Source: Pseudorhizobium endolithicum
GTDB taxonomy: Bacteria > Pseudomonadota > Alphaproteobacteria > Rhizobiales > Rhizobiaceae
NCBI RefSeq assembly: GCF_902153245.2
Contig: NZ_CABFWF030000012.1
Span: forward strand, 459,823 to 523,822
Length of the DNA stretch: 64,000 nucleotides
Reading direction: 5' to 3'
The notes under the pieces were generated by a model. That model searched no databases. It saw only the letters and a list, made by a program, of their open reading frames with translations, and was not told the origin of the DNA. Both the position numbers and the translations under genes were made by a program. Shown here piece after piece: positions 8,866 to 31,137 of this stretch (the stretch's first letter is position 1; each line of letters begins with the position of its first letter).

Positions 8866-8890
8866 GGAACCTGCGCCGGCTGGATGAGTT
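8866..8890 (+). promoter_or_regulatory. EcfG (RpoE2)-type promoter of the flavoprotein gene
   Basis: GGAAC at 8866-8870, 16 bp, then AGTT ending at 8890. The published rhizobial RpoE2/EcfG consensus is GGAAC-N18/19-TT, mostly read as GGAAC-N16/17-CGTT. It lies 46 bp before the start codon. Confidence 0.55.
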
Positions 8891-8936
8891 CTCGCCGCCT
8901 GGAGCCGCAGAACGCGGCTCGGGAAAAGGAGACCCA

Positions 8937-9875
8937 ATGGCCGGCAGAAGCTACCTCGAGCGCGAGAACCCGCCTCCGCTGTCCGACTGCCTCGTCATCG
9001 GCGGGGGACCCGGCGGCATGACGGCCGCCATCTATCTCGCCCGGATGAACCGGGCGGTACGTCTGGTCGACGGCGGCCGGAGCCGGGCCTCGCTCATTCC
9101 GCGCTCCTACAATCATCCCGGCTTTCCCGGCGGGATCAGAGGCCGCGATCTTCTGGCTCGAATGCGCGAGCAACTGCAGGAGCTCAGGGTCGGGATACTG
9201 CAGGGCGACGTGACGGACGTGCGGAAGACCTCGGAAGGGTTCTTTTCCGTGAGCATTGCCGGCGGCCGCAGCCTGATGGGGCAGAACCTTGTTTTGGCGA
9301 CGGGGTTGGTGGACAACCTTCCCCCCATCGATGATGCGCGCGGCATGGTGGCCGAGGGCTATCTGCGGATCTGCCCGATCTGCGACGGGTTCGAGATCGG
9401 CGGACGGCCGGTCTGCGTCATCGGCGCCACGATGCGGGCGGTCGCCGAGGCGCGGTTTCTCAAGACCTTCAGCTCTTCCGTCTCCATCGTCACACTGGGC
9501 GAAACACGGAGTTGGGAAGGGGAGCCGGACGGGCTGGCCTCCGACGAGGGCATCGCCGTCGTCACGGCGCCGCTGGCATCCCTCGAGAGGACGGGGGAAA
9601 CGGAGACATCGCTGACGTTTGCGGATGGGACCGTGCTCGAGGGGGTCGTGCTTTATTCGGCGCTTGGGGTGCGGCCACGGTCGGCGCTGGCGGCAGGGCT
9701 TGGGCTTGCCCTGGAAGAGGATGGCCGTATCGCCACCGGCACACACCAGGAGACGGCGATCGAAGGGTGTTTCGCCGTGGGCGATGTCGTGACGGGACTC
9801 AATCAGTTGGGCGTTGCCATGGCGCAGGGGGAGATTGCGGCGGTGGCGATTCACAACAGGCTGAGAGGCGTGTGA
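8937..9875 (+). CDS. Thioredoxin-reductase-like FAD/NAD(P)H oxidoreductase
   Basis: The 312-aa flavoprotein has an N-terminal FAD-binding GGGPGG at residues 22-27, a redox-active C146-P-I-C149 followed by DGFE as in thioredoxin reductase (CATC-DGFF), a second nucleotide-binding fold near VIGATMRA, and a C-terminal FAD motif FAVGDV. Thioredoxin reductases use NADPH to reduce a disulfide partner, but no thioredoxin gene is adjacent and the protein may act on another substrate. AAAGGAG precedes the ATG. The EcfG-type promoter upstream suggests a general-stress role. Confidence 0.87.
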
Positions 9876-9943
9876 TGAAGAAGGAACCCGAGAACCTCCG
9901 GAAATGTTATCCGCCGATCCAATCGAAGGAAGGAAGGTGTGCC

Positions 9944-10222
9944 GTGCGGCAGTTCTTGATGATTTCCGGTCTGGCCCTGATGATCACCGGGTGCACGGCG
10001 GTATCGTGGAACGACGGTCCCGGGCTCGAACCCATTCCCGGCAGCATCACCTATGGCGGCCAACCGCGAAGCCGCCTTACGAAGGCGCCGATCGGCAGCT
10101 CCGTCAGCCACCAGTTCACGAACGAATACGGCCAGCGAGTGGAAGAGCGCTACGTGATCCAGCCGGATCGCAGCCTGAAGCTCGTCTGGCGGCGCATCTA
10201 TCGCGACTGGCTCTACGACTGA
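9944..10222 (+). CDS. Small putative lipoprotein
   Basis: From the GTG at 9944 (ribosome site AAGGAAGG) the product is 92 aa. It opens with a lipoprotein signal peptide: hydrophobic FLMISGLALMITG followed by the lipobox cysteine at about residue 17. The mature part is short, polar and rich in Arg and Tyr, ending RIYRDWLYD. An ATG at 9875 overlaps the stop of the flavoprotein gene (TGATG) and is in frame, giving 115 aa, but it would put an odd 23-residue leader before the signal peptide. No specific function is recognised. It is likely cotranscribed with the flavoprotein. Confidence 0.65.
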   Translation: MRQFLMISGLALMITGCTAVSWNDGPGLEPIPGSITYGGQPRSRLTKAPIGSSVSHQFTNEYGQRVEERYVIQPDRSLKLVWRRIYRDWLYD

Positions 10223-10282
10223 CGGTGGCGGGGCAGGGACCGATAACCGCACAATGCGGTTGCCGATCCTCGCCTGTCTCAC

Positions 10283-11086
10283 TCAGTTGGCGTTGCCGCT
10301 GCCCGGCTCGGCCATCTTGCGGTGCTGCTCGGCAAGCATTCCCGCCGGCGTCACGTTCGCGGCCGCGGACATGATCTTGTTCTTCCAGCCGGCCACCACA
10401 TCGCCTTCGCCGTCCATCATGGCCTTGAAACCCAGTTTGGCGACATAGGCCGGGTCGTCCTTGCTGCCCTGTCCCACGGACGTATCCATGAGGTCGGCGC
10501 GTTCGAAGAACTCGGTATCCGTCGGACCCGGCATCAGGCAGGTGACGGTGACGCCCGTAGCCTTCAACTCGTTGCGCAACGCGAAGGAGAAGCTGTTGAT
10601 GAAGGCCTTGGTGCCGTTGTAGACGGCCTGGAAGGCACCGGGCATGAAGCCCGCGATGGAACCGGTGAAGAGAATGCGCCCCTGGCCGCGCGTGCGCATC
10701 CGGTTGCCGAGGTCGTGCACGAGCCGGATGGTGCCGGTGATGTTGGTGTCGACAACCCGCTGCGCCTCGTCCAGATCCTCGTCCAGAAATCCGTGGCCGA
10801 GGCCGACGCCCGCATTGGCCATCAGCAGGTCGATTGGGCGGCCGAGGGCGGCGATGCCTTCGCAGAAACGGCGCACGCCGTCCCTGGTGGCCAGATCCAC
10901 CTGCATGGCCTGTACCTCCACGCCGAACTCCTTCAGCCGCATCGCGGCTTCCTGTATGCGCGGTTCGTCGGCCGCGATCGCAAGATCGTAGCCTTCCTGC
11001 GCCGCGCATTTTGCCAGTTCGTAGCCGATGCCTGTCGAGGCACCCGTGACGACGGCCAGCCCCCTGCCAGTTTCAACCGGGTTCAT
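10283..11086 (-). CDS. Short-chain dehydrogenase/reductase
   Basis: This 267-aa classical SDR has the cofactor motif TGASTGIG near the N-terminus, NAG in MANAGVG, catalytic Ser in FTGSIAGF and catalytic YNGTK. It would be an NAD(P)-dependent soluble oxidoreductase with unknown substrate. The ATG at 11086 is chosen for its AGGAGGAG ribosome site; an in-frame start nine codons upstream would lie within the preceding gene. It begins 10 bp after the alcohol dehydrogenase stop, so the two form an operon. Confidence 0.88.
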   Translation of the reverse strand: MNPVETGRGLAVVTGASTGIGYELAKCAAQEGYDLAIAADEPRIQEAAMRLKEFGVEVQAMQVDLATRDGVRRFCEGIAALGRPIDLLMANAGVGLGHGFLDEDLDEAQRVVDTNITGTIRLVHDLGNRMRTRGQGRILFTGSIAGFMPGAFQAVYNGTKAFINSFSFALRNELKATGVTVTCLMPGPTDTEFFERADLMDTSVGQGSKDDPAYVAKLGFKAMMDGEGDVVAGWKNKIMSAAANVTPAGMLAEQHRKMAEPGSGNAN

Positions 11087-11096
11087 CGTCTCCTCC

Positions 11097-12266
11097 TTAC
11101 GGTTTGAGTACAACCTTGATGCAGCCGTCCTTCTTGTCGCGGAACGTCTTGTAGAGTTCGGGACCGTCTTCCAGGCTGCCGTGGTGGGTGATGACGAAGG
11201 ACGGATCGATGTCGCCGCGCTCGATATGCTCGAGCAGCTTCGGCATGTAGCGCTGCACCGGCGTCTGCGCCATCCTGAAGGTCAGTCCTCGGTTGATCGC
11301 GGAACCGAAGGGGATCTTGTCCAGGAAGCCGCCATAGACGCCGATCACCGAGACGGTGCCGAAGTTGCGGCAGCAATGGATGGCCTGGCGCAGCACATGC
11401 GGCCGGTCGGTGCCCATGAAGGTGGCGACCTTGACGCGGTCGACGGCGGCGTAGAAGCTCGACATGGTGTCGGCCTCCGTGCCGACCGCGTCGATGCAGG
11501 CGTCGGCACCACGGCCTTTGGTCTTCTCCATGATGGCGTCGTAGATGTCGACATCCCGGAAATCGAGAGTTTCGGCACCGCCATCCCGGGCAAGGGCCAG
11601 ACGTTCCGGGACCGTGTCGATCGCGATCACCCGCTCGGCGCCGAGAAGGAAGGCGGAGCGGATGGCCATCTGGCCGACGGGGCCGCAGCCCCAGATGGCG
11701 ATCGTATCGCCCGGCTGGATGTCGCAGAATTCGGCACCCATGTAGCCGGTCGGAAAAATATCGGAGAGGAACAGCGCCTGGTCGTCCGTCAGGGTATCGG
11801 GAACCTTGATCGGTCCGACATCAGCATAGGGGATGCGCAGATATTCTGCCTGTCCACCCGCGTAGCCGCCGAGGAGATGCGAATAGCCGAACAGGCCGGC
11901 CGGCGAGTTGCCCCAGAACTTGCGGGCCTTCTCGTGGTCCGGATTGCTGCGTTCGCATGCGGAATAGAAGCCGCGCCGGCAGAAGTAGCACTCGCCGCAG
12001 GAAATGGTGAAGGGAACGACGACGCGGTCGCCCACCTTCAGCTTCGTATTGTCCTTGCCGACCTCAACCACCTCGCCCATGGTTTCATGGCCCATGACGT
12101 CACCGCTGTGCATATCGGGGATGACGCCGTCGAAGATATGCAGGTCGGAGCCGCAGATGGCGCAGGCGGTGACCTTGATGATGGCGTCGCGGCTATCCTG
12201 GATTTCCGGATCGGGAATGCTTTCGCAGCGGATGTCGCTCTTGCCATGCCAGGTCAGTGCTTTCAC
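11097..12266 (-). CDS. Zinc-dependent alcohol dehydrogenase (formaldehyde-dehydrogenase-like MDR)
   Basis: The 389-aa medium-chain dehydrogenase has catalytic-zinc ligands in CAICGSDLH and GHET, a structural-zinc cysteine cluster CGECYFC followed by SACE, and a Rossmann motif GCGPVG. The overall layout, with an insertion after the structural zinc site, resembles glutathione-independent formaldehyde or threonine dehydrogenase relatives; the substrate is unknown. The GTG at 12266 is chosen because AAGGAGGAG lies just upstream. An ATG 58 codons earlier would add a sequence with no resemblance to the family. First gene of an operon with the SDR, under an EcfG-type promoter. Confidence 0.9.
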
Positions 12267-12307: not shown

Positions 12308-12332
12308 AACAGGCCCTCGCGGCAAAGGTTCC
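12308..12332 (-). promoter_or_regulatory. EcfG-type promoter of the alcohol dehydrogenase/SDR operon
   Basis: On the minus strand: GGAAC, 16 bp, TGTT. It ends 41 bp before the GTG start at 12266. Confidence 0.6.
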
Positions 12333-12866: not shown

Positions 12867-12891
12867 GGAACCTTTCGGACGCGAAACAATT
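12867..12891 (+). promoter_or_regulatory. Possible EcfG-type promoter of the 84-aa gene
   Basis: GGAAC at 12867-12871, then 18 bp, then TT. The four -10 bases read AATT, a weaker match. It ends 23 bp before the start codon. Confidence 0.4.
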
Positions 12892-12914: not shown

Positions 12915-13169
12915 ATGATGCTTGATATCGAAAACAATCACGACCGCGAAACCCAACGCCGCGCGCTTGCTGTCGAAGGAGCGATCCTGCTGCTGATCGA
13001 TGGCCTGGCCGCCCGCGGAACCATCTCGGCCGACGAGGCGGAGGACATGCTCAGGATATTGTCGAAGAGTTCTGATTTCTCCGCCGCACGCGCCTCCAGT
13101 TCCCTGCGGATCGTGGACCACCTAAGGCGGCTGCGCGCCGGCGACGGTGCGGCAACGCCGGGAGCATGA
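12915..13169 (+). CDS. Hypothetical protein, 84 aa
   Basis: No family is recognised. The protein is small and helical, with a central segment AILLLIDGLAARGTIS that looks amphipathic and not membrane-spanning, followed by a DEAEDML helix and a basic end. Two adjacent ATGs (12915, 12918) follow a CGGAG ribosome site. A strong rho-independent terminator follows at 13211, supporting a single-gene transcript. Confidence 0.65.
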   Translation: MMLDIENNHDRETQRRALAVEGAILLLIDGLAARGTISADEAEDMLRILSKSSDFSAARASSSLRIVDHLRRLRAGDGAATPGA

Positions 13170-13268: not shown

Positions 13269-14648
13269 TTACGCAGGGGCGGCAGCGATGTCCGACCAGT
13301 TCCCGGCACCTGCTCCGGCGCGCTTTGCCTTCTGCCGTGTCGTGGGCGTTGCAGGGCGGCGGCCGATGCTGACATATTTCAGGCCGTGCCGGGTGACCTC
13401 GTGCGGCGCAAAGAGATTGCGGCAATCGACAATGGAACGTCCCGCCATCAGGCCGGAAATCCTGCGGAGATCAAGCCTCGCATAGTCGTCCCATTCCGTC
13501 AGAATGACGAGAGCGTCCGCGTCCCTGGCCGCCTCATAGGGGCAATCCCGCCAGGCGGCGCCCGGAACAAGGCGTTCCGTCGCCTTTCGGGCCTTCGGGT
13601 CATGGGCCACGACGGCGATGCCGGCGTCGAGGAGGGCAGGGATCACCGTCAGCGCCGCTGAATCGCGCACGTCGTCGGTATTGGACTTGAAGGCGGTCCC
13701 GAGCACGGCGACGCGTCCGCCCTTCCTCCCCAGTTCCGCGATGATCTTCGCGGCGAGCTTCGCCTTCCGTGCCTCGTTTCGCTGAATAAGCGTTTCCACC
13801 AAGGTCTGCGGCTGCCGATAGCGGCGTCCGGTGGCGGCAAAGGCGCGCGTGTCCTTCGGAAAGCAGGAGCCGCCGAAGCCCGGCCCGGCGTTGAGAAATG
13901 CCCGGCCGATCCGCCGGTCGAGGCCGATGCCCTCCGCCACCGCCGCCACATCGCCGTCCGCAGCCTCGCAGAGGTCTGCCACCTCGTTGATGAAGCCGAT
14001 CTTCAGGGCCAGGAACGCATTGGCGGCATATTTCACCAATTCCGCATTGGTGGTGGTCGTCGTGACGAAGGGAACGCCCTTCTTGCGAAGGGGCGCGTAA
14101 AGCTCGGCCAGGACGTCGGCCGAGCGGGCGTCGTCCGCCCCGATCACGATGCGGTCGGCTTCCAGAAAGTCACCGATGGCCGAACCTTCGCGAAGGAATT
14201 CCGGATTGGATGCCACGTGGACATCGGAGTCGCCCCTGATTTCGGCCACCAGATTCGCTATCATTCTTGCGGTGCCTGCCACCACAGTGGACTTGATGAC
14301 GATGACCGCATCCGACTTGACGAGAGGGGCAAGTTCGGCCGCCGCGCCTTTCACGTAGGAGAGGTCGATGTCTCCGTCATCGTCCGATGGCGTCCCCACA
14401 GCGATGAAGATCGCATCGGCTTGCGGAGCCGCGGATGCCAGGTCGTCGCTGAATGCGAGCCGGCCGGCCATCATGTGTCGCCGGATCAACTCGGACAGGC
14501 CGGGTTCGTAGATCGGAACCTCCGCGCGCTTCAGCCGCGCGATCTTCATAGCGTCGGTATCGATGCAGACGACGCGATGGCCGAGTTCGGCCAAGCACGC
14601 TCCGGTGGTCAATCCAACATATCCGGCCCCGATCATGACGACATTCAT
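13269..14648 (-). CDS. ugd: UDP-glucose 6-dehydrogenase
   Basis: The enzyme oxidises UDP-glucose to UDP-glucuronate with two NAD+, supplying surface polysaccharides. The 459-aa protein has the NAD-binding GAGYVG at residues 7-12 and the catalytic cysteine C262 in GGSCFPKD. The C-terminal UDP-binding domain includes TAFKSNTDDVRDS. The length is slightly above the usual 430-440 aa because of a basic Ala/Arg-rich tail after residue 430. AAGGAGAGG precedes the ATG. It carries an EcfG-type promoter at 14718-14742. Confidence 0.95.
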   Translation of the reverse strand: MNVVMIGAGYVGLTTGACLAELGHRVVCIDTDAMKIARLKRAEVPIYEPGLSELIRRHMMAGRLAFSDDLASAAPQADAIFIAVGTPSDDDGDIDLSYVKGAAAELAPLVKSDAVIVIKSTVVAGTARMIANLVAEIRGDSDVHVASNPEFLREGSAIGDFLEADRIVIGADDARSADVLAELYAPLRKKGVPFVTTTTTNAELVKYAANAFLALKIGFINEVADLCEAADGDVAAVAEGIGLDRRIGRAFLNAGPGFGGSCFPKDTRAFAATGRRYRQPQTLVETLIQRNEARKAKLAAKIIAELGRKGGRVAVLGTAFKSNTDDVRDSAALTVIPALLDAGIAVVAHDPKARKATERLVPGAAWRDCPYEAARDADALVILTEWDDYARLDLRRISGLMAGRSIVDCRNLFAPHEVTRHGLKYVSIGRRPATPTTRQKAKRAGAGAGNWSDIAAAPA

Positions 14649-14717: not shown

Positions 14718-14742
14718 AACAACGGCAGGGGCCGAGGGTTCC
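14718..14742 (-). promoter_or_regulatory. EcfG-type promoter candidate of ugd
   Basis: On the minus strand: GGAAC, 16 bp, TGTT. It is 69 bp before the ugd start, the longest leader among the candidate sites. Confidence 0.45.
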
Positions 14743-14804: not shown

Positions 14805-14829
14805 CTGGAACATAGGACATCGCATGCCG
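14805..14829 (+). promoter_or_regulatory. EcfG-type promoter of the YhdF-like SDR gene
   Basis: GGAAC at 14805-14809, 16 bp, CGTT at 14826-14829: a full consensus match, 36 bp before the ATG. Confidence 0.7.
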
Positions 14830-14865
14830 TTGGAAAGGGCACACTTTCCCAACAGAGAGGACACC

Positions 14866-15723
14866 ATGAGCCAGTATCCCACGCCGCCCTTTCCCGAGCA
14901 GCAGCAGCCGATGCCCGGTTACACGAAGAAGATGCAGCCGGTGCCGGACCACGGAGAACAGTCCTACAAGGGGTCCGGACGCCTCTCCGGCAAGAAGGCC
15001 GTCATCACCGGCGCCGACAGCGGCATCGGGCGGGCCGTCGCCATTGCCTATGCCCGCGAGGGAGCGGATGTGCTGATCTCCTATCTCGACGAGGAGGAGG
15101 ACGCACAGGAAACGAAGAAATGGGTGGAAGAGGCGGGCCGCAAGGCGGTCCTCGTGCCCGGCGACATACAGTCGGCCGAGCATTGCCGCCGGATCATCGA
15201 AAAGGCGGTGAGCGAATTCGGCGGGGTCGACATCCTCGTCAACAATGCAGCCCATCAGGCGACTTTCGCCGATATCGGCGATATCAGCGACGAGGAGTGG
15301 GAGCTGACCTTCCGCGTGAACATCCATGCGATGTTCTATCTCACCAAGGCGGCCGTACCGCACATGAAGGCCGGAAGCTCCATCATCAACACCGCTTCCA
15401 TCAATTCCGACACGCCGAATCCCAGCCTGCTCGCCTATGCGACGACGAAGGGCGCGATCCAGAACTTCACCGCCGGCCTCGCCCAACTGCTGGCGGAGAA
15501 GGAAATACGCGCCAATGCCGTGGCGCCAGGCCCCATCTGGACGCCGCTCATCCCGTCGACGATGACGGAGGACAAGGTGAAGGACTTCGGAAAGCAGGTC
15601 CCCATGAAACGTCCGGGCCAGCCCGCCGAACTGGCCACAGCTTATGTGATGCTCGCCGATCCGCTTTCCAGCTATGTATCGGGGGCGACGATTGCCGTCA
15701 CGGGCGGCAAGCCGATCTTGTAA
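14866..15723 (+). CDS. YhdF-like short-chain dehydrogenase (general stress SDR)
   Basis: The 285-aa SDR begins with a proline/glutamine-rich stretch (PPFPEQQQPMPG) characteristic of the YhdF/YgfF glucose/ribitol-dehydrogenase-like group, many of which are stress-induced. It has TGADSGIG, NNAAH, the Ser of NTASINS, and catalytic YATTK. It is probably NADP-dependent with unknown substrate. The ATG at 14866 follows AGAGAGGA; an in-frame ATG 14 codons upstream lies over the EcfG promoter and is unlikely. Its stop faces that of the P450 gene. Confidence 0.9.
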   Translation: MSQYPTPPFPEQQQPMPGYTKKMQPVPDHGEQSYKGSGRLSGKKAVITGADSGIGRAVAIAYAREGADVLISYLDEEEDAQETKKWVEEAGRKAVLVPGDIQSAEHCRRIIEKAVSEFGGVDILVNNAAHQATFADIGDISDEEWELTFRVNIHAMFYLTKAAVPHMKAGSSIINTASINSDTPNPSLLAYATTKGAIQNFTAGLAQLLAEKEIRANAVAPGPIWTPLIPSTMTEDKVKDFGKQVPMKRPGQPAELATAYVMLADPLSSYVSGATIAVTGGKPIL

Positions 15724-17038: not shown

Positions 17039-17323
17039 TCAGGTTCGCCGGCCGACCTCCCGAGCGAGATCCTCGAAGTCGAAGCTCTCGCCCCGTTCCG
17101 CCGCCTCGTTCGCCAGAAGCAGGACGCGGATGGGGAAGGCGACGGCCTTGCGATGGGACTGGGAGACCGTGAGGGGCTTGCCATCATCGAGGACTGTCTG
17201 CTCGGCGCCCTGGAGCGCTTGCTGGACCTCCGCATGGGTCACGAGACCCTTGCCGACGAGGAGGTTGTTGATGGCTGCGAAGGCAAGATACAGACCTTCG
17301 AGTTGGGGATTGGCGGTGTTCAT
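17039..17323 (-). CDS. Hypothetical protein, 94 aa, between ndh and the P450
   Basis: No family is recognised. It is a small, soluble, helical protein (LYLAFAAINNLLVGKGLVTH, then LTVSQSHRKAVAFPIRVL) with no cysteine and no membrane segment. It starts with ATG at 17323, overlapping the ndh stop by 4 bp, and an AAAGGA ribosome site lies inside the ndh end. The tight overlap on both sides argues for a gene coexpressed with ndh and the P450. An accessory role for one of them is possible but unsupported. Confidence 0.7.
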   Translation of the reverse strand: MNTANPQLEGLYLAFAAINNLLVGKGLVTHAEVQQALQGAEQTVLDDGKPLTVSQSHRKAVAFPIRVLLLANEAAERGESFDFEDLAREVGRRT

Positions 17324-18636
17324 GTCTCAGTCCTTTCTGTCGATGCCGGGACGAAGGTGGCGGCATTCTCGTCGATCAGGCGGGCGCCCCGCTGCCGCGT
17401 GAGGTAGCGCCATATCCACTGGATGCTGACGAGCAGCCGCTTCTCGAAATTGACGAGGAGATAGACGTGGACGATCGCCCACAGGAACCAGGCAAAGCGT
17501 CCCTTGAGGCGCCAGGTCCCGAAGTCGAAGATCGCGGCATTGCGTCCGATGACGGCGGTGTTGCCGCGGTTATGGAAGCGGAAGGGCTCGGCCTGCTGCC
17601 CCCGCGTCAGGCGAAGCCGCAGTGCCTTGCCGAGATATTCGCCCTGCTGCTTGGCGACCTGCGCCAGTGCAGGAAGCGGCTTGCCGTCGTCCGCAAGCCC
17701 AAGGGCGGTGTCGCCGATCGCATAGACATCGGTGCAGCCGATGACGCTGAGATCGGGATTGACCGGGACACGGCCTCCGGCCTTGCCCTCCACCTTCAGC
17801 CAGGAGGCCGCAGGCGACGCCTTCACTCCGGCGCCCCAGACAACGCTGCCGGTCCTGATCGTCCGGCCACCGGCCACCACTTGTTCCTTGTCGATGGATT
17901 CGACAGGTAAGCGCGTCAACACCTCGACGCCTGCCTTCTCCAGTTCGTTACGGCCATACTCCGCGAGTTCCTCGGGAAAGGCCGACAGGATGCGCGGCCC
18001 TGCCTCGACCAGGATGACCCGGAAATGCTCCGGCTGCAGCCGACGGAAGTCCCTCTCGATCATGAACCGTCCGAGTTCGGCGATGGCGCTGGCCATCTCG
18101 ACGCCGGTCGGACCTCCGCCGATGACGACGCTGGTCAGGAGGGCTTGCTTTTCTTCCGGATCGCCGGAAAGTTCTGCTCTTTCGAACGCCAGAAGCAGGC
18201 GCTGGCGAATGAGGCGCGCCTCGTGGATCGTCTTCAGGCCGGGTGCCCAGGCGCGCCACTCCTCGTGGCCGAAGTAATTGTATTCGGAGCCGGTGGCGAG
18301 AACGAGCGCATCGAAAGAAACCGGATCTCCGTGATCCAGCAGCACGTGCTTGCCTGCCAGGTCCAGGCCGGTGACTTCCGCAAGCAGTACGCGGATGTTG
18401 CGGTATCGCCCCAGCGTCCGGCGGATCGGCTCGGATATGTCGGCGGGCGACAAGGCGGCCGTGGCCACCTGATAGAGCAGCGGCTGGAACAGGTTGTGGT
18501 TGCGCCGGTCGACGACCGTCACCTCGATAGGGGAGTTGCCGAGTTCCCGGGCACAGGCAAGACCGCCAAAACCGCCACCGACGATGACGATTCGGCGTCG
18601 GTCAGACGGTCGATCTCCATCCTGCCCCTGATGCAT
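17320..18636 (-). CDS. ndh: Type II NADH:quinone oxidoreductase
   Basis: The single-subunit, non-proton-pumping enzyme passes electrons from NADH through FAD to the quinone pool at the inner membrane. The 438-aa protein has the FAD motif VGGGFGG near residue 17, the NAD motif GGGPTGVEMA, and a C-terminal amphipathic region with a hydrophobic stretch (FAWFLWAIVHVYLLVNF) for membrane attachment. The ATG at 18636 follows GGGAGC; an upstream in-frame start would add 43 residues and lie across the promoter. First gene of a three-gene operon. Confidence 0.93.
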   Translation of the reverse strand: MHQGQDGDRPSDRRRIVIVGGGFGGLACARELGNSPIEVTVVDRRNHNLFQPLLYQVATAALSPADISEPIRRTLGRYRNIRVLLAEVTGLDLAGKHVLLDHGDPVSFDALVLATGSEYNYFGHEEWRAWAPGLKTIHEARLIRQRLLLAFERAELSGDPEEKQALLTSVVIGGGPTGVEMASAIAELGRFMIERDFRRLQPEHFRVILVEAGPRILSAFPEELAEYGRNELEKAGVEVLTRLPVESIDKEQVVAGGRTIRTGSVVWGAGVKASPAASWLKVEGKAGGRVPVNPDLSVIGCTDVYAIGDTALGLADDGKPLPALAQVAKQQGEYLGKALRLRLTRGQQAEPFRFHNRGNTAVIGRNAAIFDFGTWRLKGRFAWFLWAIVHVYLLVNFEKRLLVSIQWIWRYLTRQRGARLIDENAATFVPASTERTET

Positions 18637-18681
18637 TTTTGCTCCCGTCGACGGCCGAATCCCGAACCGATTGCGAGGGTC

Positions 18682-18706
18682 AACACGTCCTTTCGGGAAT
18701 TGTTCC
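18682..18706 (-). promoter_or_regulatory. EcfG-type promoter of the ndh operon
   Basis: On the minus strand: GGAAC, 16 bp, TGTT, 45 bp before the ndh start. It lies back-to-back with the plus-strand promoter at 18723. Confidence 0.55.
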
Positions 18707-18722
18707 AGCCGGATTGGCCGAC

Positions 18723-18747
18723 GGAACCTTTTGCACGAGCCGCCGTT
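18723..18747 (+). promoter_or_regulatory. EcfG-type promoter of the microprotein pair
   Basis: GGAAC at 18723-18727, 16 bp, CGTT at 18744-18747, a full match, 29 bp before the first microprotein ATG. Confidence 0.7.
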
Positions 18748-18776
18748 CACTTTCCCGAGAAACAAAGGAGACCGCT

Positions 18777-18851
18777 ATGTACAGCATCGTGTGGTTGGTA
18801 GGCGCCGTCGTCATCGTCATCGCCGTTCTCAACCTAGTCGGCTTCGCCTGA
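18777..18851 (+). CDS. 24-aa single-span membrane microprotein (copy 1)
   Basis: The 24-residue product starts MYSIVWLVGAVVIV and ends NLVGFA; almost the whole length is one hydrophobic helix. AAAGGAG lies 6 bases before the ATG. It has a paralogue 53 bp downstream sharing SIVWLVGAVVIV, so selection acts on the protein and this is not a chance frame. It is probably an inner-membrane peptide that regulates or stabilises a partner. A general-stress promoter lies upstream and a shared terminator at 19003. Confidence 0.75.
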   Translation: MYSIVWLVGAVVIVIAVLNLVGFA

Positions 18852-19055: not shown

Positions 19056-21590
19056 TCATGTGGAAACCAGCAGCGCGAAGGGATGATCCACGAAGGCCCA
19101 GGCGATCGACAGTCTTTCGGACGGGTCGAACCGTCTTCCGGTGAAGAGGTCGCGATAGGAGCGCGACCGAAGAGCAGGGGGCAGGGGCAGAACCGTCTCA
19201 TCCCATCGCTTGGAAAGCCGCTCTTCCCCTTGGCGAAAGGCGCCGAGCACGAGGCGCGGGGCAATCAGCACCAGCGCTGCCTCTTCCGTGCGACGGGCAA
19301 AGGATAGCAGGTTGGCCGCTCTCTTTCCTTCCGGGTGCAGCGCCAGGTATTCGCCTGATCGAAAGAGATCCGGCTGCTCCCGGCGTAGACGCAGAACCCG
19401 TGCGATGACCTGCTGCTTCAGGCGTCCGGTTCGCCAGTCTTCCTCCGTCGTGGAGAGGGCACCCTCGGGCGCCAGGTCTGCGGCAAGGGTGGCGAAGTCG
19501 GGTTCCCGCCGGTTGTCTGGATCCACGAGGCTGAGGTCCAGCCGCTCGCTGCCCTGGTAGATGTCAGGGACGCCCGGTGCGACGAGCTTGACGAGGGTCT
19601 GGGTGATGCCGTTCACCAGCCCAGTGCGGAGGAAGGGTTCCAGCGTCGTTCGGAAATCCTCCAGGAAAGCCTGGTTGTCGGGGGACAGCAGGCGGCTCGC
19701 GTAGGCGCGGACGGCTCCTTCGTAATCCTCGTTCGGATCGCTCCAGGTCGTCCGCTGCTTTGCCTCCCGGAGAGCCTTCTCCACATACTGCAGGAAGCGC
19801 TCCTCCAAGGCCTTCAGCCCGTCGCGATCGTCGGTGGCAAGATCGGCCGGCCAGACCCCGGCGAGCGCCTGGTAGAGCATCCATTCGACGGCGGGCTCCG
19901 GTGCCGCGCCACCTGAGAGGTGCGCCACTGCTTGGCTGTTGATCTCGCGCCAGCGGTCGACCGATGCCGCCCAATGGTCGGGAGCTTCGCTGATCGTGTA
20001 CAGCCTGGCACGGGCATCCTCACCCCGTTTCGTGTCGTGGGTCGAGGTGGCCGAAAGAGCGTCCGGCTGGCGCTGCCGCCTGATCGTCATCTCCTCGTGA
20101 AAATGCTCGACGGAAGCCGGTGCGGGATCGGCCTCGCTGCCGACCTCGTTCATCGCCAGCAGGCGATGGTTGCGGAAGAAGGTGGTATCTTCCAGCGATT
20201 TCGCCATCAGCGGCCCTGTCAACTGCTGGAACCGGATGCGGAAGAGAAGGGCTTCGTCGCTGTTGCCGCCCGTCTCGCCGGCCAGCAGGCGATGCAGGAA
20301 GCCGAGGGCCTGCTCGTCGGGCGCATGGGGACCCGTCCGCACGCGCCGAACGACCTCGTCGAGAAGGGCTTTCCCTTCGGCCGGCATGCCCTCCGCCGTG
20401 CCGTAGGTGCGGTAGACGGGGAAGGCGACAAGGAGTTCGCGCAGGGCATCCTGCATTTCCCCGCTGCCTGTGCTCACGTCACCGGCGTCGCCTTCATGCA
20501 GTTTCAGAGCAAGCTTCAGCAGCGTCGATACTTCGCCTTCGAAGTTGTTGTTCGCCATCAGCAATTTCGCTTCGCGCAGCTCGTCGAGCGGGTCCGGCGC
20601 CGCTCCTGCGACGGCGTGGTAAGCAACTGTCAGCGCTTCGTGCCCGCTCCCATCCACCAGCACGTTGCCCAGCGCGGTGATGAACTCATAGCCGGTGGTG
20701 CCGGAAATCGGCCAGTCCTCCGGAAGCAGCTCGCCCTCGCCGAGGATCTTCTCCACGACGACGTAGATGTCCGGCCCGACGGCTGCCCGCAGGCGCTCGA
20801 GATAGCCCTTCGGGTCGGCGAGGCCGTCGACATGATCGATCCGCAGCCCGTCGACGCGGCTCTCGCGGACCAGATCCAGCACCGTCCGGTGCGCCGCCTC
20901 GAAGACCTCCGGATCCTCGACACGCAGGCCGACCAGACCGGTGATCTCGAAGAAGCGGCGGTAGCTCAGTTCGCGCGGCGCATCCCGCCAGGACATCAGC
21001 CGCCAGGGTTGCCGGTCGTGCAGGGCAACGATTTCCTCGGGCTTGGAGATTGCCAGCACCTCGCCTGCCCGTCCTTCATAGGAGGATGGGGTGAGGGGGT
21101 AGTAGCTGTCGTAGTAGGCAAGGGCCGGCTTGCCCGTCTGCGGATCGACCCTCACCGAAAGCTCGCCCTTCGCCAGCACCTCCTCGAAGGTGTCGCCGAG
21201 GAAGGGCAGCGTCAGCCGGCGGCTCCAGTCGATGTCGAAATAGCGGGCGTACCGGCTCTGCTGGCCGTGCTCCACCACGTCGCGCCACCAGGGATTCTCC
21301 AGCGAGGCGGCCATGTGGTTGGGCACGATGTCGAGGATCAGCCCGAGGCCGTGTTCCCGCAGCGTGTCCGACATCTTGAGGAAGCCGTCGCGACCGCCGA
21401 GCACCGGATCGAATTCGTTCGCATCGGTGACGTCGTAGCCATGGGTGGAGCCGTTGGTGGCGGAGAAGATCGGCGAGGCATAGAGATGGCTGATGCCGAG
21501 TTGCTTCAGATAGGGCACCAGCCCGGCAGCACGCTCGAAGGTCATGCCGTTGCGGAACTGGATGCGGTAGGTGGAGGTCGGGATCTTCAT
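19056..21590 (-). CDS. treY: Maltooligosyltrehalose synthase TreY
   Basis: The enzyme rearranges the reducing-end glucose of maltodextrins into a trehalose unit, the first step of the TreYZ route. The 844-aa GH13 protein has the typical N-terminus STYRIQF, HGYDVTDANEFDP, the nucleophile region DGLRIDHVDGLADP, acid/base Glu in VVVEKILG, and C-terminal PGVPDIYQGSE. The length fits the family. Its ATG overlaps the treZ stop by 4 bp, so the two are translationally coupled. Trehalose is an osmotic and desiccation protectant, consistent with the stress promoter upstream of treZ. Confidence 0.96.
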   Translation of the reverse strand: MKIPTSTYRIQFRNGMTFERAAGLVPYLKQLGISHLYASPIFSATNGSTHGYDVTDANEFDPVLGGRDGFLKMSDTLREHGLGLILDIVPNHMAASLENPWWRDVVEHGQQSRYARYFDIDWSRRLTLPFLGDTFEEVLAKGELSVRVDPQTGKPALAYYDSYYPLTPSSYEGRAGEVLAISKPEEIVALHDRQPWRLMSWRDAPRELSYRRFFEITGLVGLRVEDPEVFEAAHRTVLDLVRESRVDGLRIDHVDGLADPKGYLERLRAAVGPDIYVVVEKILGEGELLPEDWPISGTTGYEFITALGNVLVDGSGHEALTVAYHAVAGAAPDPLDELREAKLLMANNNFEGEVSTLLKLALKLHEGDAGDVSTGSGEMQDALRELLVAFPVYRTYGTAEGMPAEGKALLDEVVRRVRTGPHAPDEQALGFLHRLLAGETGGNSDEALLFRIRFQQLTGPLMAKSLEDTTFFRNHRLLAMNEVGSEADPAPASVEHFHEEMTIRRQRQPDALSATSTHDTKRGEDARARLYTISEAPDHWAASVDRWREINSQAVAHLSGGAAPEPAVEWMLYQALAGVWPADLATDDRDGLKALEERFLQYVEKALREAKQRTTWSDPNEDYEGAVRAYASRLLSPDNQAFLEDFRTTLEPFLRTGLVNGITQTLVKLVAPGVPDIYQGSERLDLSLVDPDNRREPDFATLAADLAPEGALSTTEEDWRTGRLKQQVIARVLRLRREQPDLFRSGEYLALHPEGKRAANLLSFARRTEEAALVLIAPRLVLGAFRQGEERLSKRWDETVLPLPPALRSRSYRDLFTGRRFDPSERLSIAWAFVDHPFALLVST

Positions 21591-23416
21591 GCACGACCTC
21601 CGGCCTTGATGGTGACGACGATGCCGTCGGGGCCGAGCATGCCGCCTTCACCCGCATCGGCGGGCAGGCGATGGGCGGGCTCGCCCGGCAGGTCCGGCAG
21701 CGGCAGCGGTCTGTTGCCGAGGTTGATCGCCATGCCGATCTCGCCCTTCGGGAAGCGCCACGCCACCGCAACCAGGCCGTTCTCCGCCTTGAGGATGCGG
21801 CCGCCCGTGTCGCGTGCTGATCCCAGCATCGGTACGATTGTCTCGCGACGCAGCGCCAGCAGATCGTGGGTCAGGTCCATCCACTCCCGTCCTTCCGTGG
21901 ACGCCGGTTTGTCCCAGTCGAGCTTGCAGTCGGTGAAGGTCGTCTCCGCATTGGGATCGGGGATCTCCCCATCCTCTCTGCCGTGCCCGGCATGGCCTTC
22001 GAACTCCTTGCGCCGGCCTTCGCGCACCGCCTTCGCGAGATCGCCGTGGAAATCAGTGAAGAACAGGAACGGACGCGTCTCGCCGAATTCCTCGCCCATG
22101 AAGAGAAGCGGGATGTGCGGCGACAGGAGCAGTGCGGAGAACAGCGCCTTCACCTTTTCCGGTCCGGCGATCGTCAGGAGCCGCTCGCCGAAGGCACGGT
22201 TCCCGACCTGGTCGTGGTTCTGGATGAAGTCCACGAACGCGACCGGTGGCTGGCCTGTGCTTGTGACCCCGCGCGTCTTGCCGGAATGCTTCGATTTCTC
22301 GCCTTGATAGGCGAAACCTTCCGCCAGCGTCCGTGCCACAAGGTGTTCCGTGTTCTCGCCGAAGTCCTGGTAATAGCCGTCTGTCTCACCGGTCGCGTAG
22401 ACGTGGATGGCGTTGTGGAAGTCGTCGTTCCACTCGCCCGTGAAGCGGGGCACGCTGCCGTCCTCGCCGCGTTCATGCAGGAAGGTGACGTTGCGCGAAT
22501 CTTCCGTGGTCAAATGGATGTGGCGGTCGGGGAATTCCGCCCGTATCCGCTCGGCGATTTCCACGAGGATGTGCTTTTCGGATTCGTCGTCGCCTATCTG
22601 GTCGATGGCGTCGAAGCGCAGCCCATCCAACTGGAACTCGTCCAGCCAGTAGAGAGCGTTCTCCACGAAGAAGCGGCGCACCGGCGCTAGTTCGTAGGCG
22701 ATCGCGGCACCCCAGGGGGTGTGCTTGTCCTCGTGGAAGAACTCCGGCGCGAGCAGAGGCAGATAGTTACCCTCCGGTCCGAAGTGATTGTAGACGACGT
22801 CCAGCAGCACCATCAGCCCATGGCCATGGGCGGCGTCGATGAAGGCCTTGAAGTCCTCCGGCGGGCCATAGGCGCGGTGCGGGGCATAGAGCAGAACGCC
22901 GTCATAGCCCCAGCCGCGATTGCCGCCGAAATGGGCGACGGGCATGACCTCGACGGCGGTGATGCCGAGTTCCGCCAGATGGGGCAGCTTCTCGATCGCG
23001 GCGCGGAAGGTACCTTCCGGGGTGAAGGTGCCGACATGCATTTCGTAGATTACAGCCTCTTCCCAAGGCCGGCCGCGCCACTCGGCGTTCCGCCATTCGT
23101 AGGACGTCGGGTCGATCACCAGCGAAGGACCGTTGACGTCGTCCTTCTGGCCGCGCGAGGCGGGGTCGGGAATGGCGGTGCCGTCCGCCAGTACGTAAGA
23201 GTATTCGCTGCCGGCGGAGACACCCGTCGCCAGGAGCTCGAACCAGCCGTCTTCGGTAGGGGTCATCGGCGTTTCGCTGCCGTTGAGACGCAGCGCCACC
23301 TGTGCCTGGCCGGGCGCCCACAATCGGAATCGCACTTCGCCCACTGCCGTGAACTCCGCTCCCCAGGTCCTGGGGAAAGCGTGGAATTCATCTATCGGAT
23401 CGGTTGCGGATGTCAT
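21587..23416 (-). CDS. treZ: Maltooligosyltrehalose trehalohydrolase TreZ
   Basis: The enzyme releases free trehalose from maltooligosyltrehalose. The 609-aa GH13 protein has an N-terminal CBM48-like domain (VRFRLWAP), EMHVGTF, the nucleophile in DGLRFDAIDQI, a catalytic Glu in HLTTEDSRN and the transition-state Asp in FIQNHDQVGN. It is followed directly by treY. The debranching enzyme gene treX/glgX, often in the same operon, is not present in this window. An EcfG-type promoter lies 27 bp upstream. Confidence 0.95.
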   Translation of the reverse strand: MTSATDPIDEFHAFPRTWGAEFTAVGEVRFRLWAPGQAQVALRLNGSETPMTPTEDGWFELLATGVSAGSEYSYVLADGTAIPDPASRGQKDDVNGPSLVIDPTSYEWRNAEWRGRPWEEAVIYEMHVGTFTPEGTFRAAIEKLPHLAELGITAVEVMPVAHFGGNRGWGYDGVLLYAPHRAYGPPEDFKAFIDAAHGHGLMVLLDVVYNHFGPEGNYLPLLAPEFFHEDKHTPWGAAIAYELAPVRRFFVENALYWLDEFQLDGLRFDAIDQIGDDESEKHILVEIAERIRAEFPDRHIHLTTEDSRNVTFLHERGEDGSVPRFTGEWNDDFHNAIHVYATGETDGYYQDFGENTEHLVARTLAEGFAYQGEKSKHSGKTRGVTSTGQPPVAFVDFIQNHDQVGNRAFGERLLTIAGPEKVKALFSALLLSPHIPLLFMGEEFGETRPFLFFTDFHGDLAKAVREGRRKEFEGHAGHGREDGEIPDPNAETTFTDCKLDWDKPASTEGREWMDLTHDLLALRRETIVPMLGSARDTGGRILKAENGLVAVAWRFPKGEIGMAINLGNRPLPLPDLPGEPAHRLPADAGEGGMLGPDGIVVTIKAGGRA

Positions 23417-23443: not shown

Positions 23444-23468
23444 AACGGCCGAAACGGCTTCCGGTTCC
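23444..23468 (-). promoter_or_regulatory. EcfG-type promoter of treZY
   Basis: On the minus strand: GGAAC, 16 bp, CGTT, a full match, 27 bp before the treZ ATG. Confidence 0.7.
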
Positions 23469-28594: not shown

Positions 28595-28756
28595 TCAGGG
28601 TCCGGGGGCTGGGCTGCCCTTCGTGCCGGATTCGCGTCCCGTCTCCTGGCGGTCCTTATCCTGCTCCCTGTCGTCTTGCCGGGCCAGTTCGCGGTCGATG
28701 GTCTCGCGGGAACCTTCTACGGGGTCCTGTTCAGGATGGTTCTTCGTATCCGTCAT
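28595..28756 (-). CDS. Small hydrophilic stress-type protein, 53 aa
   Basis: The product is 53 aa, almost entirely charged or polar (many Asp, Glu, Arg, Gln; no Cys; probably disordered), ending GTKGSPAPGP. No family is recognised. The ATG at 28756 is chosen for its AAGGAGG ribosome site; a start nine codons upstream is possible but less well placed. A promoter with the EcfG consensus lies 26 bp upstream. Small hydrophilic proteins of this type are common in general-stress regulons. Confidence 0.68.
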   Translation of the reverse strand: MTDTKNHPEQDPVEGSRETIDRELARQDDREQDKDRQETGRESGTKGSPAPGP

Positions 28757-28782: not shown

Positions 28783-28807
28783 AACCGCGGGCGGCAGGGG
28801 TTGTTCC
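28783..28807 (-). promoter_or_regulatory. EcfG-type promoter of the 53-aa gene
   Basis: On the minus strand: GGAAC, 16 bp, GGTT, 26 bp before the ATG. The -35 element touches the stop codon of the phosphoesterase gene. Confidence 0.6.
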
Positions 28808-29556
28808 TAAAGTTCGAGCAGTGCGTAGGGGCGGCCGGTCGGTTTCTCTATGTGGGAGGCGACGTTATAGACCGGGGCGCCGCCGGGGGTCCTGCCCTCG
28901 TAGGTGCCGCGGTGGGCATGGCCGTGAACGACAGCCGAGACGGGAAAGCGGTCGATGGTTTCCGCCAGCCGCGAAGAGCCGAGAAAGGGATAGATCTCCT
29001 GCGGCTCGCCGACGACCGTTTCGGGGATCGGCGCATAATGCAGCACGACCATGGCCCGCTCCGAGCGGACCTGCCGCAGGGCATTTTCCAGCCGCATGGT
29101 TTCCTCCACGCTTTCGGCTACCATCGCCTTGATGGCGGGTTCGCCGAAGGAGCCCAGCATGTAGCGTCCGAAACCGCCGGCGAAGCCCTTCACGCCGGCA
29201 AAGCCGACGCCGTTGATCTCGACCGCCTGTCCTTCTAGCAGTTGCACGCCGGCCTCCTTGACGATCGCCTTCACCTCCTCGACGTGACCGCATTCGTAGT
29301 CGTGATTGCCGAGAACGGCGACGATCGGGATGGAGCAGGAGCGCAGGTCCGCTGCCAGCAACTCGGCTTCCTTCGGCTTGCCGAGGTCGGTCAGATCGCC
29401 GGTCAGCACGAGGATGTCGGCGGCCTGGGAGATTTCGCTGAACAGTTCCTTGTAGGAGTTGCCGCCATTTTCCTTGACATGCAGGTCGCCCATGGCGGCG
29501 ATCTTCTGCCGGCCATTGGCCTTCTTCGCCGTTGTGCCCTCGGTCGTCTTCGTCAC
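28807..29556 (-). CDS. Metallophosphoesterase, calcineurin-like
   Basis: The 249-aa protein carries the metallophosphoesterase motifs in order: MGDLHV (a GD-x-H variant), TGDLTD, GNHDYE, LHYAP and GHAHRG. It should be a binuclear-metal phosphodiesterase or phosphatase of unknown substrate. The GTG at 29556 is chosen because AAGGAGG lies 7 bases upstream; the open frame extends further but that part is low-complexity Arg-rich shadow of the nucleotidyltransferase gene. It starts 11 bp after that gene's stop, so the two form an operon. Confidence 0.88.
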   Translation of the reverse strand: MTKTTEGTTAKKANGRQKIAAMGDLHVKENGGNSYKELFSEISQAADILVLTGDLTDLGKPKEAELLAADLRSCSIPIVAVLGNHDYECGHVEEVKAIVKEAGVQLLEGQAVEINGVGFAGVKGFAGGFGRYMLGSFGEPAIKAMVAESVEETMRLENALRQVRSERAMVVLHYAPIPETVVGEPQEIYPFLGSSRLAETIDRFPVSAVVHGHAHRGTYEGRTPGGAPVYNVASHIEKPTGRPYALLEL

Positions 29557-29567
29557 GCAGGACCTCC

Positions 29568-30413
29568 TTATGCCGGTTCCTCGTTCACGCCTTCGCGCCA
29601 CTCGCCTTCTCCGCCGACGTCGGCGAAGCCCCATTCCTTGACGTCGATCTCGAAATCCACCCGGCTGAACATGCGGCCGCGGCAGATCTTCATCTGCGGC
29701 AGCGGCAGCTCGCGTTGCGCCTTGAGACGGTCGAGAAGTTCGTCGAGCAGCCAGTCGGGCACCTTGTCGCGCTCTGTCGGGTAGATCCACCGGAAATTCA
29801 GGAGATGGACCAGCAGGACCTCCCAGTGAACCTCCATGTGGTTGAGTAGCCGCTGCCAGTCGATCTGGTCATGGGCACGCAGGATGACGTGCACCACGTC
29901 GCCGCCGTCGTAGCGGTGGCGCAACTGGACGAAGCACTTCGACCAGATGAGCTCGGTGGGCGCGATGATCCGGACCTGGTGACCGTTCATCTCGATCTGA
30001 CGGGCGTTGTCGAACCACGCGTCTCCGATCGGCATGGTGCCGTTCGAACCGGCAAAGATGACGTCGAAGAAGTGCTTGCCCCTGATGACCTTGCCGAGCC
30101 AGCGGTCGTCTTCCACCTCGATCTCGTAGCCTCTGGCCTTGAAGTGGGCGAGGATGCGCGCGTAGTCGCCGGCCCGGCAGAAGATGTCGAGATCCTTGGT
30201 CGGTCGCGAAATGCCGGTATAGGCGCTGACCGCATAGGTGCCAGCGAGCAGGAACGGGATGCCGGAGTTCACCAGTTCCTCCAAAGCCTCGGCGACGAAG
30301 GCCTCGGCGTCTGCGTCCACGAGCGTGGGGGCCGCCTTTACCTCCATGTGCGGCATCGTCTCGATCATGTCCCGCGCCGCGCGCTCCGCAGGCTTGCCGA
30401 TATCGGCGTCCAT
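29568..30413 (-). CDS. Nucleotidyltransferase-fold protein
   Basis: The 281-aa protein has a polymerase-beta-like nucleotidyltransferase core: LLAGTYAVSAYTG, then RPTKDLDIFC, where the D-x-D pair would bind metal, followed by an α/β domain with HFFDVIFAG. Such proteins are often annotated only as nucleotidyltransferase family; the target may be RNA, a protein or a small molecule. The ATG at 30413 follows CAGGAGA. It precedes the metallophosphoesterase in the same operon, pairing a possible transferase with a possible hydrolase. Confidence 0.78.
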   Translation of the reverse strand: MDADIGKPAERAARDMIETMPHMEVKAAPTLVDADAEAFVAEALEELVNSGIPFLLAGTYAVSAYTGISRPTKDLDIFCRAGDYARILAHFKARGYEIEVEDDRWLGKVIRGKHFFDVIFAGSNGTMPIGDAWFDNARQIEMNGHQVRIIAPTELIWSKCFVQLRHRYDGGDVVHVILRAHDQIDWQRLLNHMEVHWEVLLVHLLNFRWIYPTERDKVPDWLLDELLDRLKAQRELPLPQMKICRGRMFSRVDFEIDVKEWGFADVGGEGEWREGVNEEPA

Positions 30414-30441: not shown

Positions 30442-30467
30442 AACACCTTTGGCAGTTGTGCGGTTCC
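30442..30467 (-). promoter_or_regulatory. EcfG-type promoter of the nucleotidyltransferase operon
   Basis: On the minus strand: GGAAC, 17 bp, TGTT, 28 bp before the ATG at 30413. Confidence 0.55.
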
Positions 30468-30524: not shown

Positions 30525-30785
30525 TCAACGTTCGGGATTGTCGGCATTGGCAAGCGCGCTGATGCTGCCGTCGTCGTTCTCGATATCCTCGCGTTCGTCC
30601 AGATCCTCAAGATCGGTCTTCACGAGATAGGTGTCGCCGCCGCCGAGACGCGAGGCTTCGCGGACAGCGTCGGGATTGGTCATGTCGATCTGGGCGTGCA
30701 GTGCATCCTCCGATCGCTCGCGGCCTTCCTGTTCGAAACGGGCGGAGGAGTTCTTGTCGTCCGCAAACTTGTCCTTGGCATCCAT
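30525..30785 (-). CDS. Hypothetical acidic protein, 86 aa
   Basis: The product is 86 aa, strongly acidic (DLEDLDEREDIENDDG) with few hydrophobic residues, probably disordered and cytoplasmic. No family is recognised. The ATG at 30785 follows AAAGGACC. Extending the frame upstream would run through the promoter and into the divergent gene's leader, so it is rejected. It shares a 122-bp divergent region with the DUF3008 gene, and both sides carry EcfG-type promoters. Confidence 0.7.
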   Translation of the reverse strand: MDAKDKFADDKNSSARFEQEGRERSEDALHAQIDMTNPDAVREASRLGGGDTYLVKTDLEDLDEREDIENDDGSISALANADNPER

Positions 30786-30817
30786 GACCGGTCCTTTCGC
30801 GTTGGGTGTCACCTTCC

Positions 30818-30842
30818 AACGGCACCGACGGTGCTTGGTTCC
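30818..30842 (-). promoter_or_regulatory. EcfG-type promoter of the 86-aa gene
   Basis: On the minus strand: GGAAC, 16 bp, CGTT, a full match, 32 bp before the ATG at 30785. Confidence 0.7.
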
Positions 30843-30852
30843 GGCTATGGGC

Positions 30853-30877
30853 GGAACCAAGTCCCTCTGTTGAGGTT
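30853..30877 (+). promoter_or_regulatory. EcfG-type promoter of the DUF3008 gene
   Basis: GGAAC at 30853-30857, 16 bp, GGTT at 30874-30877, 30 bp before the ATG. The -35 elements of this promoter and the opposing one are only 10 bp apart. Confidence 0.65.
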
Positions 30878-30907
30878 GAAGCCGATAATCAGCCCCAGGA
30901 GGTAACC

Positions 30908-31093
30908 ATGCCGGCAAAATCGAAAGCACAGCAGAAGGCGGCAGGTGCCGCGCTTGCCGCAAAGCGCGGCGACATCAAGAAGAGCGAGCTCAAGGGCGCG
31001 TCGAAGAGCATGGAGAAGTCCATGAGCGAGAAGGAGCTTCACGACATGGCCTCGACGAAGCGGAAGGGCAAGCCGGAGCACGCGTCGCAATAA
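30908..31093 (+). CDS. DUF3008 family small basic protein
   Basis: The 61-aa lysine-rich protein has the family pattern MPAKSKAQQKAAGAALAAKR near the start and DMASTKRKGKPEH near the end. DUF3008 proteins are widespread in proteobacteria and have no assigned function; the high Lys/Ala content could suit nucleic-acid contact (speculative). AGGAGG lies 5 bases before the ATG. The EcfG-type promoter places it in the stress set. Confidence 0.85.
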   Translation: MPAKSKAQQKAAGAALAAKRGDIKKSELKGASKSMEKSMSEKELHDMASTKRKGKPEHASQ

Positions 31094-31112
31094 CGGGCAT
31101 GCGAACGGCTTT

Positions 31113-31137
31113 GGAACCTGTGCAGGGAGAGGGCGTT
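31113..31137 (+). promoter_or_regulatory. EcfG-type promoter of the interrupted gene
   Basis: GGAAC at 31113-31117, 16 bp, CGTT at 31134-31137, a full match, 38 bp before the ATG at 31176. Confidence 0.7.

Follow-up and report, generated by a model that had tools for sequence, protein, structure and literature searches.

Fourteen sites between positions 8866 and 31137 of a 64-kb window of the Pseudorhizobium endolithicum genome were found to carry the signal of the stress sigma factor EcfG, and with a probability of roughly 0.85 we read them from the sequence as EcfG promoters that would make this stretch one stress-responsive island. The window, which is the whole stretch of DNA analysed, corresponds to G000:C12:459823-523822 in a genome totaling 4.19 Mb over 20 contigs. 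All fourteen sites combine a GGAAC -35 element with an NGTT or NATT -10 element over a spacer of 16-17 bases, sites being defined as GGAAC-N16/17-N[AGT]TT. The initial annotation of this DNA had listed thirteen of them, all of which are present, although the start given as 14805 was wrong and is 14807. Its count of five sites with N16-CGTT was exact (14807, 18723, 23444, 30818 and 31113), and the distance of 23-69 bases that it gave was confirmed for all thirteen as that from the end of the -10 element to the start codon. Twelve of the thirteen are exact matches to GGAACN18TT, the exception being the site at 30442 with its spacer of 17 bases. The site it had overlooked, at 9883-9908 (plus strand, N17, TGTT), lies 35 bases from a GTG start and brings the total to fourteen. 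Two further matches were excluded, namely the doubtful one at 32327-32352, which is separated from the start codon by merely 8 bases, and the antisense match at 31115-31139, which overlaps 31113-31137 and was taken as chance.

The sites were far more numerous than in shuffled sequence. Among the 19 curated leaders of island units, each of 150 bases, 15 contained a site (14 without the doubtful one at 32327), when 1000 dinucleotide shuffles averaged 0.28, with no shuffle above 3, an expectation of about 1.5% per leader. This comparison with shuffled leaders, which had been proposed together with the original list, thus placed the sites beyond chance. In the window, GGAACN18TT matched 17 times (shuffle mean 4.65) and N16-CGTT five times (shuffle mean 0.41), and neither count was reached in any of 100 shuffles. 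The density of sites was also compared with a background of 939 kb elsewhere in the genome, consisting of 45 stretches and the remainder of the window, by counting those sites in intergenic DNA that precede both a ribosome-binding site and a start codon, with a reading-frame minimum of 25 residues. The 24-kb island held 14 such placed sites (reversed motif, 0) and the background 61 (reversed motif, 14), corresponding to a 13.7-fold higher rate per intergenic base in the island (Poisson P(>=14) of about 1e-9). The 14 of this count wrongly includes the antisense match at 31115 and misses 18723, where the peptide is below the 25-residue limit, leaving the total still at 14.

Conservation was examined in the best 80 of 187 confirmed TreZ loci from the named genomes scanned, comprising 25 rhizobial and 55 Enterobacterales loci. 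The rhizobial loci belonged to Neorhizobium, Rhizobium, Xaviernesmea, Endobacterium and Shinella, or to records labelled Rhizobiales bacterium. The 170 bases 5' of each orthologue were searched, and the reversed motif served as the control. Spacers below are N16 unless stated otherwise. The site of the trehalose operon (23444-23468, minus strand, CGTT), 5' of treZ (21587-23416, minus; TIGR02402 over the cut-off) and treY (19056-21590, minus), was found ahead of treZ in all 25 rhizobial loci, and that of a microprotein unit (18723-18747, plus, CGTT) likewise in 25/25, all CGTT. The site at 30853-30877 (plus, GGTT) precedes duf3008, a DUF3008 gene (30908-31093; PF11450), and that at 30818-30842 (minus, CGTT) precedes orf86, encoding a small hydrophilic protein (30525-30785, minus); both were present in 23/23 orthologue leaders. 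Equally complete were the sites ahead of orf84 (12867-12891, plus, AATT; gene 12915-13169) with 16/16, of the short-chain dehydrogenase/reductase (SDR) gene sdr2 (14807-14831, plus, CGTT; gene 14866-15723) with 9/9, and of ndh, encoding an NDH-2-type dehydrogenase with Pyr_redox_2 and NDH2_C domains (18682-18706, minus, TGTT; gene 17320-18636, minus), with 9/9. The site at 30442-30467 (minus, N17, TGTT) lies 5' of ntp, a predicted nucleotidyltransferase gene (29568-30413, minus; PF14907), and of the metallophosphoesterase gene mpe (28807-29667, minus; PF00149), and was found ahead of ntp in 20 of 24 loci. The ntp and mpe genes (28807-30413, minus) overlap as a pair, which is together in 24 of the 25 rhizobial loci.

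Fewer loci were available for the thioredoxin-reductase-like gene trxB (8937-9875; Pyr_redox_2), which is preceded at 46 bases by the site at 8866-8890 (plus, AGTT) and whose one orthologue also has a site. The same applied to the SDR gene sdr1 (10283-11113, minus), with an own site in 2/2 relatives; in the window it follows the zinc alcohol dehydrogenase gene adh (11097-12266, minus) behind the site at 12308-12332 (minus, TGTT). The site at 31113-31137 (plus, CGTT) is 5' of orf149 (31176-31625), and in the relative L045 a similar N-terminus was seen by eye behind a site. The remaining two lie 69 bases 5' of ugd, a UDP-glucose/GDP-mannose dehydrogenase gene (site 14718-14742, minus, TGTT; gene 13269-14648, minus), and 5' of orf53, which encodes a small hydrophilic protein (site 28783-28807, minus, GGTT; gene 28595-28756, minus).

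Neighbouring genes were devoid of sites or nearly so, with 0/11 each for bkdA, bkdB, bkdC and lpd, 0/16 for abm, 0/11 for tbp, 0/24 for mpe, 0/1 for hpp and 1/25 for treY, and the reversed motif occurred 0-3 times per gene in the orthologue leaders. The mean pairwise identity of the spacers was 0.35-0.48, near the background of 0.27-0.35 in the upstream flank. The -10 element in the relatives tended to be gene-specific, being always CGTT for treZ, always NATT for orf84, TGTT (16) or GGTT (4) for ntp, and GGTT (20) or TGTT (3) for orf86. With a simple gene caller, which misses small genes, the 25 loci yielded 373 unit heads, of which 102 had a site and 7 the reversed motif. Most of the 25 loci share duf3008, orf86, ntp, mpe, treZY and duf983 in a common order, and bkdABC-lpd, ndh and sdr2 are present in only some of them.

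Several observations weigh against reading the sites as EcfG promoters. The bare motif was scarcely more frequent genome-wide than its reversed control (60 vs 52 for GGAACN16CGTT and 176 vs 133 for GGAACN16NGTT), indicating that most matches outside leaders are chance and that the signal is carried by placement, not by presence. Sites were found in only some relatives for duf983 (8/24), orf82 (2/13) and orf9944 (10/20, reversed motif 3/20), the last being the small putative gene (9944-10222) behind the site at 9883, and no syntenic orthologue of adh, ugd, orf53 or p450 was found in the comparison loci. The -10 letters are also not fixed for each gene, as orf86 and sdr2 have CGTT in the window and in none of the relatives. 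The slight genome-wide excess of the bare motif would suit an origin of the sites as chance matches in GC-rich leaders. This explanation is scarcely credible in view of the leader shuffles, the counts of the reversed motif in the identical leaders and the conservation ahead of orthologues despite diverged spacers. For the conserved sites it is refuted; the sites at 12308, 14718 and 28783 could individually still be chance.

The genome encodes a nepR-ecfG/phyR locus together with an HWE kinase. EcfG matched NF009169 with 356 bits (cut-off 321) and PhyR matched NF006623 with 389 bits (cut-off 240). One NepR match was detected with PF18557 (58.4 bits, over the cut-off), and the score of the NepR equivalog model NF051865 was below its cut-off. 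A CGTT-type site is located 44 bases 5' of phyR, and nepR-ecfG is preceded at 101 bases by a site of the NATT type. The assignment of the island to an EcfG/RpoE2 regulon in the initial annotation was supported by this locus, by the motif 5' of the regulators and by the orthologue conservation with drifting spacers, and the EcfG reading of the sites is, at the level of sequence, well supported. Some or all of the sites might instead be read by another extracytoplasmic function (ECF) sigma factor, as three further ones, 39-42% identical to EcfG, are encoded, and one of them (C12:200198, 42% identical) has a site of this kind ahead of its gene, beside a second island. This appears improbable, because the available parts of studies on Rhizobium etli and Sphingomonas report this motif as that of EcfG (PMC3892343, PMC6599016), and because the canonical nepR-ecfG/phyR locus itself bears it. 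An overlap among the EcfG copies is possible.

In the EcfG system, the HWE kinase phosphorylates PhyR, which captures NepR, and EcfG is thereby freed to direct RNA polymerase to its sites. EcfG of P. endolithicum would read the fourteen sites, and the genes of the island would respond together to stress. The output would comprise trehalose formed from maltodextrins via TreY and TreZ, an NDH-2-type NADH dehydrogenase and several further dehydrogenases, together with small hydrophilic proteins and a short transcript encoding two 24-residue membrane microproteins.

The gene content, which had been called typical of EcfG regulons, fits the available text of two earlier reports (PMC6599016, PMC3892343). 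The motif of EcfG1 in R. etli is GGAAC-N16-CGTT, and 19 of the 56 EcfG1-dependent units carry it. The present system resembles that regulon in its motif, its type of nepR-ecfG/phyR locus and its many small or unnamed targets, but differs from it, as described in the accessible portion of the report, in that the targets are gathered in an island and include a 24-residue peptide, both being features of the present genome (PMC3892343). In Sphingomonas melonis Fr1 the motif is GGAAC-N17-20-GTT with the best sites at most 100 bases from the coding sequence, a treY/treZ-type trehalose cluster depends on EcfG, as do a zinc alcohol dehydrogenase gene and Ku, and the -10 endings include CATT and AATT (PMC6599016). 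The motif type, treY/treZ, the zinc alcohol dehydrogenase, Ku and the AATT-type -10 element are shared with P. endolithicum, whereas the trehalose cluster of strain Fr1 additionally has malQ- and glgX-type genes and no island is described in the available part of that report (PMC6599016). RpoE2 of Sinorhizobium meliloti, which belongs with EcfG to one family of general stress sigma factors, has 76 dependent genes with a mapped start behind the RpoE2 motif, as far as the accessible text goes (PMC3616915). The type of regulon is known, and EcfG control of trehalose, Ku and alcohol dehydrogenase genes has already been reported in Sphingomonas, according to the available part of the source (PMC6599016). 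Our literature searches returned no title or abstract describing an island of EcfG targets or small membrane proteins under EcfG control, and within the literature searched, the gathering of targets into islands with a common backbone and the 24-residue microprotein family appear to be new. EcfG targets usually come as scattered lists, but many of them are here physically gathered on a backbone common to 25 loci, so that the growth and loss of the regulon can be traced at one place.

The variable gene content among relatives and the movement of treZY between classes would also suit a recently acquired mobile genomic island with incidental stress genes. We consider this very unlikely, since the GC content of positions 8001-32000 (0.62-0.67) is inside the range of the whole window and the backbone is common to the 25 loci. 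A Pfam search detected no integrase or transposase among 30 proteins in and around the island, attachment sites not being part of the search. The mobile island was rejected on the lack of an integrase and of a composition shift.

The TreZ of the window most resembles the protein of Neorhizobium xiangyangii (77% identity), which puts the organism among the Rhizobiaceae near Neorhizobium. The identity of this TreZ is 62-68% to the Enterobacterales sequences and 47-55% to those of fourteen other alphaproteobacterial genomes. An earlier TreZ tree had been rooted at the midpoint only and was repeated with these fourteen as outgroups. The 54 Enterobacterales rows formed one clade inside the rhizobial sequences, adjoining Rhizobium sp. 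Leaf306 (support 96), in a tree built by a quick method with support from the Shimodaira-Hasegawa-like approximate likelihood ratio test (SH-aLRT) only, with long outgroup branches flagged and the long-branched L116 excluded. The tree indicates that treZY was likely transferred from rhizobia to Enterobacterales. In Enterobacterales, the 55 treZ leaders and 54 treY leaders examined all lacked an EcfG-type site; among the outgroups, 2 of 14 treZ regions had a site, although the gene starts are undefined there. Through the treZY branch, natural versions of one operon that have and lack an EcfG promoter can be compared.

The site at 18723 is followed by no long reading frame. An ATG at 29 bases with a good ribosome-binding site opens a 24-codon frame, pep1 (18777-18851, plus), encoding a hydrophobic peptide of 24 residues with a predicted single transmembrane helix, and pep1 is found behind the CGTT site at this place in 25/25 rhizobial loci. 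A further family member, pep2 (18905-18979, plus), likewise encoding 24 residues, is present in 15 of 25 relatives. In 28 pep1 sequences, codon positions 1, 2 and 3 were variable in 7, 0 and 22 of the 24 codons, respectively, and the ratio of nonsynonymous to synonymous polymorphism (pN/pS) was 0.057, with pN lowered by a search pattern that permitted only some residues. Judged from its codons, pep1 is under strong purifying selection. The unit is followed by a hairpin with a T run (19001-19040, plus; -28.1 kcal), a likely intrinsic terminator, and 16 of the 26 loci, the window among them, show a comparable feature. The five bases after GGAAC in the pep1 promoters (18728-18732 in the window) are nearly fixed as (C/T)TTT(T/C) in 26/26 loci, while the spacers of the other sites drift; the fixed bases may represent an extended -35 element.

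Searches with the peptides gave no assignment. Neither pep1 nor pep2 matched NCBIfam at E 0.1, and in Pfam pep1 had no match and pep2 a best E of 0.14, far under the cut-off, the sensitivity of both searches being limited for 24 residues. A tblastn search of the named plasmid records with the peptide gave no match, although the simple-sequence filter may mask such a query, and a literature search by the peptide letters found none. The microproteins would be made and located in the inner membrane, where they may act during stress by binding a membrane partner. The unit is compact, has a likely terminator and encodes very short, very hydrophobic peptides in tandem; in these respects it also resembles type I toxin systems, and pep1 and pep2 might be toxin-like, or the transcript a regulatory RNA, instead of a partner of membrane proteins. 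We regard this as rather unlikely: conservation at the protein level with free third codon positions disfavours a pure RNA role, and Rfam gave no match at the gathering score in positions 8000-33000, which was the only search for an antisense partner.

Relatives of the peptide were found across Alphaproteobacteria. Of 199 genomes from the same bacterial family, 36 had a match in a search with one peptide, with loci taken for 29 of 40 places outside the own copies of this genome. A profile of 22 peptides gave matches in 22 of the 289 genomes sampled from the class, or 19 after removal of three false matches in which the match was not a short peptide (G071, G074 and G224), with some of the profile rows coming from the same 289-genome sample. 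Examination of 29 of 30 places (pep2 of this genome omitted), three of which failed the filter, gave a class set of 26 loci, with peptides of 24 (21 copies) or 22 (5 copies) residues. An EcfG-type site was located 5' of the peptide in 23 of 33 loci of the first set (reversed motif, 2) and, with spacers of 15-18 allowed, in 18 of 26 loci of the class set (reversed motif, 1), the two sets sharing four genomes. All 33 rows of the first set were retained, including one that is misplaced (L169, at a contig edge). NepR was encoded in 48 of the 289 genomes, comprising 17 of the 19 with the peptide and 31 of the 270 others, in counts not corrected for relatedness.

Genes that recur near the peptide in 57 loci, named by Pfam from one representative of each group, encode PF07332 holin-X-like proteins (11), DUF3618 proteins (10), BrkB-family proteins (6) and, in 10 loci, a membrane protein with a sub-threshold DUF6069 match. 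Next to ecfG (L032:6822-7869, plus), an EcfG-type site precedes two genes, one of the DUF883 type and one weakly PF07332-like, a pair which we take to resemble yqjD-yqjE of Escherichia coli. Members of the DUF883 group, among them E. coli YqjD, have been associated with the hibernation of membrane-bound ribosomes (PMC10746276). The neighbours of the peptide and the DUF883-type gene near ecfG led us to prefer the reading that the microproteins may be part of an inner-membrane stress module. SEP6 of S. meliloti, which has fewer than 30 residues and a predicted transmembrane helix, was recovered mainly in the P100 fraction and is conserved in Hyphomicrobiales (PMC10117765). Compared by the description in the available part of that report, it is like the 24-residue family in size and predicted helix, and may be an already-seen member of it (PMC10117765).

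We lean, with moderate confidence, towards the view that single-helix membrane microproteins of 24 residues (22 in some lineages) belong to the EcfG response of Alphaproteobacteria and were likely overlooked for their size. P. endolithicum would have them as a tandem pair in an island of stress genes, whose treZY likely passed from rhizobia to Enterobacterales and there lacks the EcfG promoter. Against the reading of the island as a whole, no site was seen at 10 of the 33 peptide loci of the first set and at 8 of the 26 of the class set, and a consensus terminator scanner reported no terminator behind the peptides in 18500-19200. The microproteins represent a concrete gap, in that many alphaproteobacterial lineages have a sequence-conserved peptide of 24 residues tied to the master sigma factor of the stress response. 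Other tiny hydrophobic frames were observed behind EcfG-type sites of this genome (L126:7475-7552, minus; L141:16774, minus; L155:14682, plus), which by eye are unrelated to the 24-residue family.

Downstream in the window, a ChpT histidine phosphotransferase over the NCBIfam cut-off is encoded at 52953-53600 (plus), without an EcfG-type NGTT site. The island studied is one of at least two in the genome. The second, at C12:180001-200000, has a glycogen-synthase-type gene and genes for Ku, DUF892, BON and isochorismatase proteins, with the ECF sigma paralogue of C12:200198 adjoining it in C12:200001-220000. Placed sites elsewhere numbered 13 in C12:180001-200000, four in C12:200001-220000, five in C12:140001-160000, six in C6:65001-85000 and five in the ecfG stretch. 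Ten proteins scanned from C12:140-200 kb included a starch/glycogen synthase domain, Ku, DUF892, BON, isochorismatase and a lysylphosphatidylglycerol-synthase-type domain, and four had no domain. As maltodextrin or glycogen is the source of the substrate of TreY and TreZ, the islands may feed one pathway.

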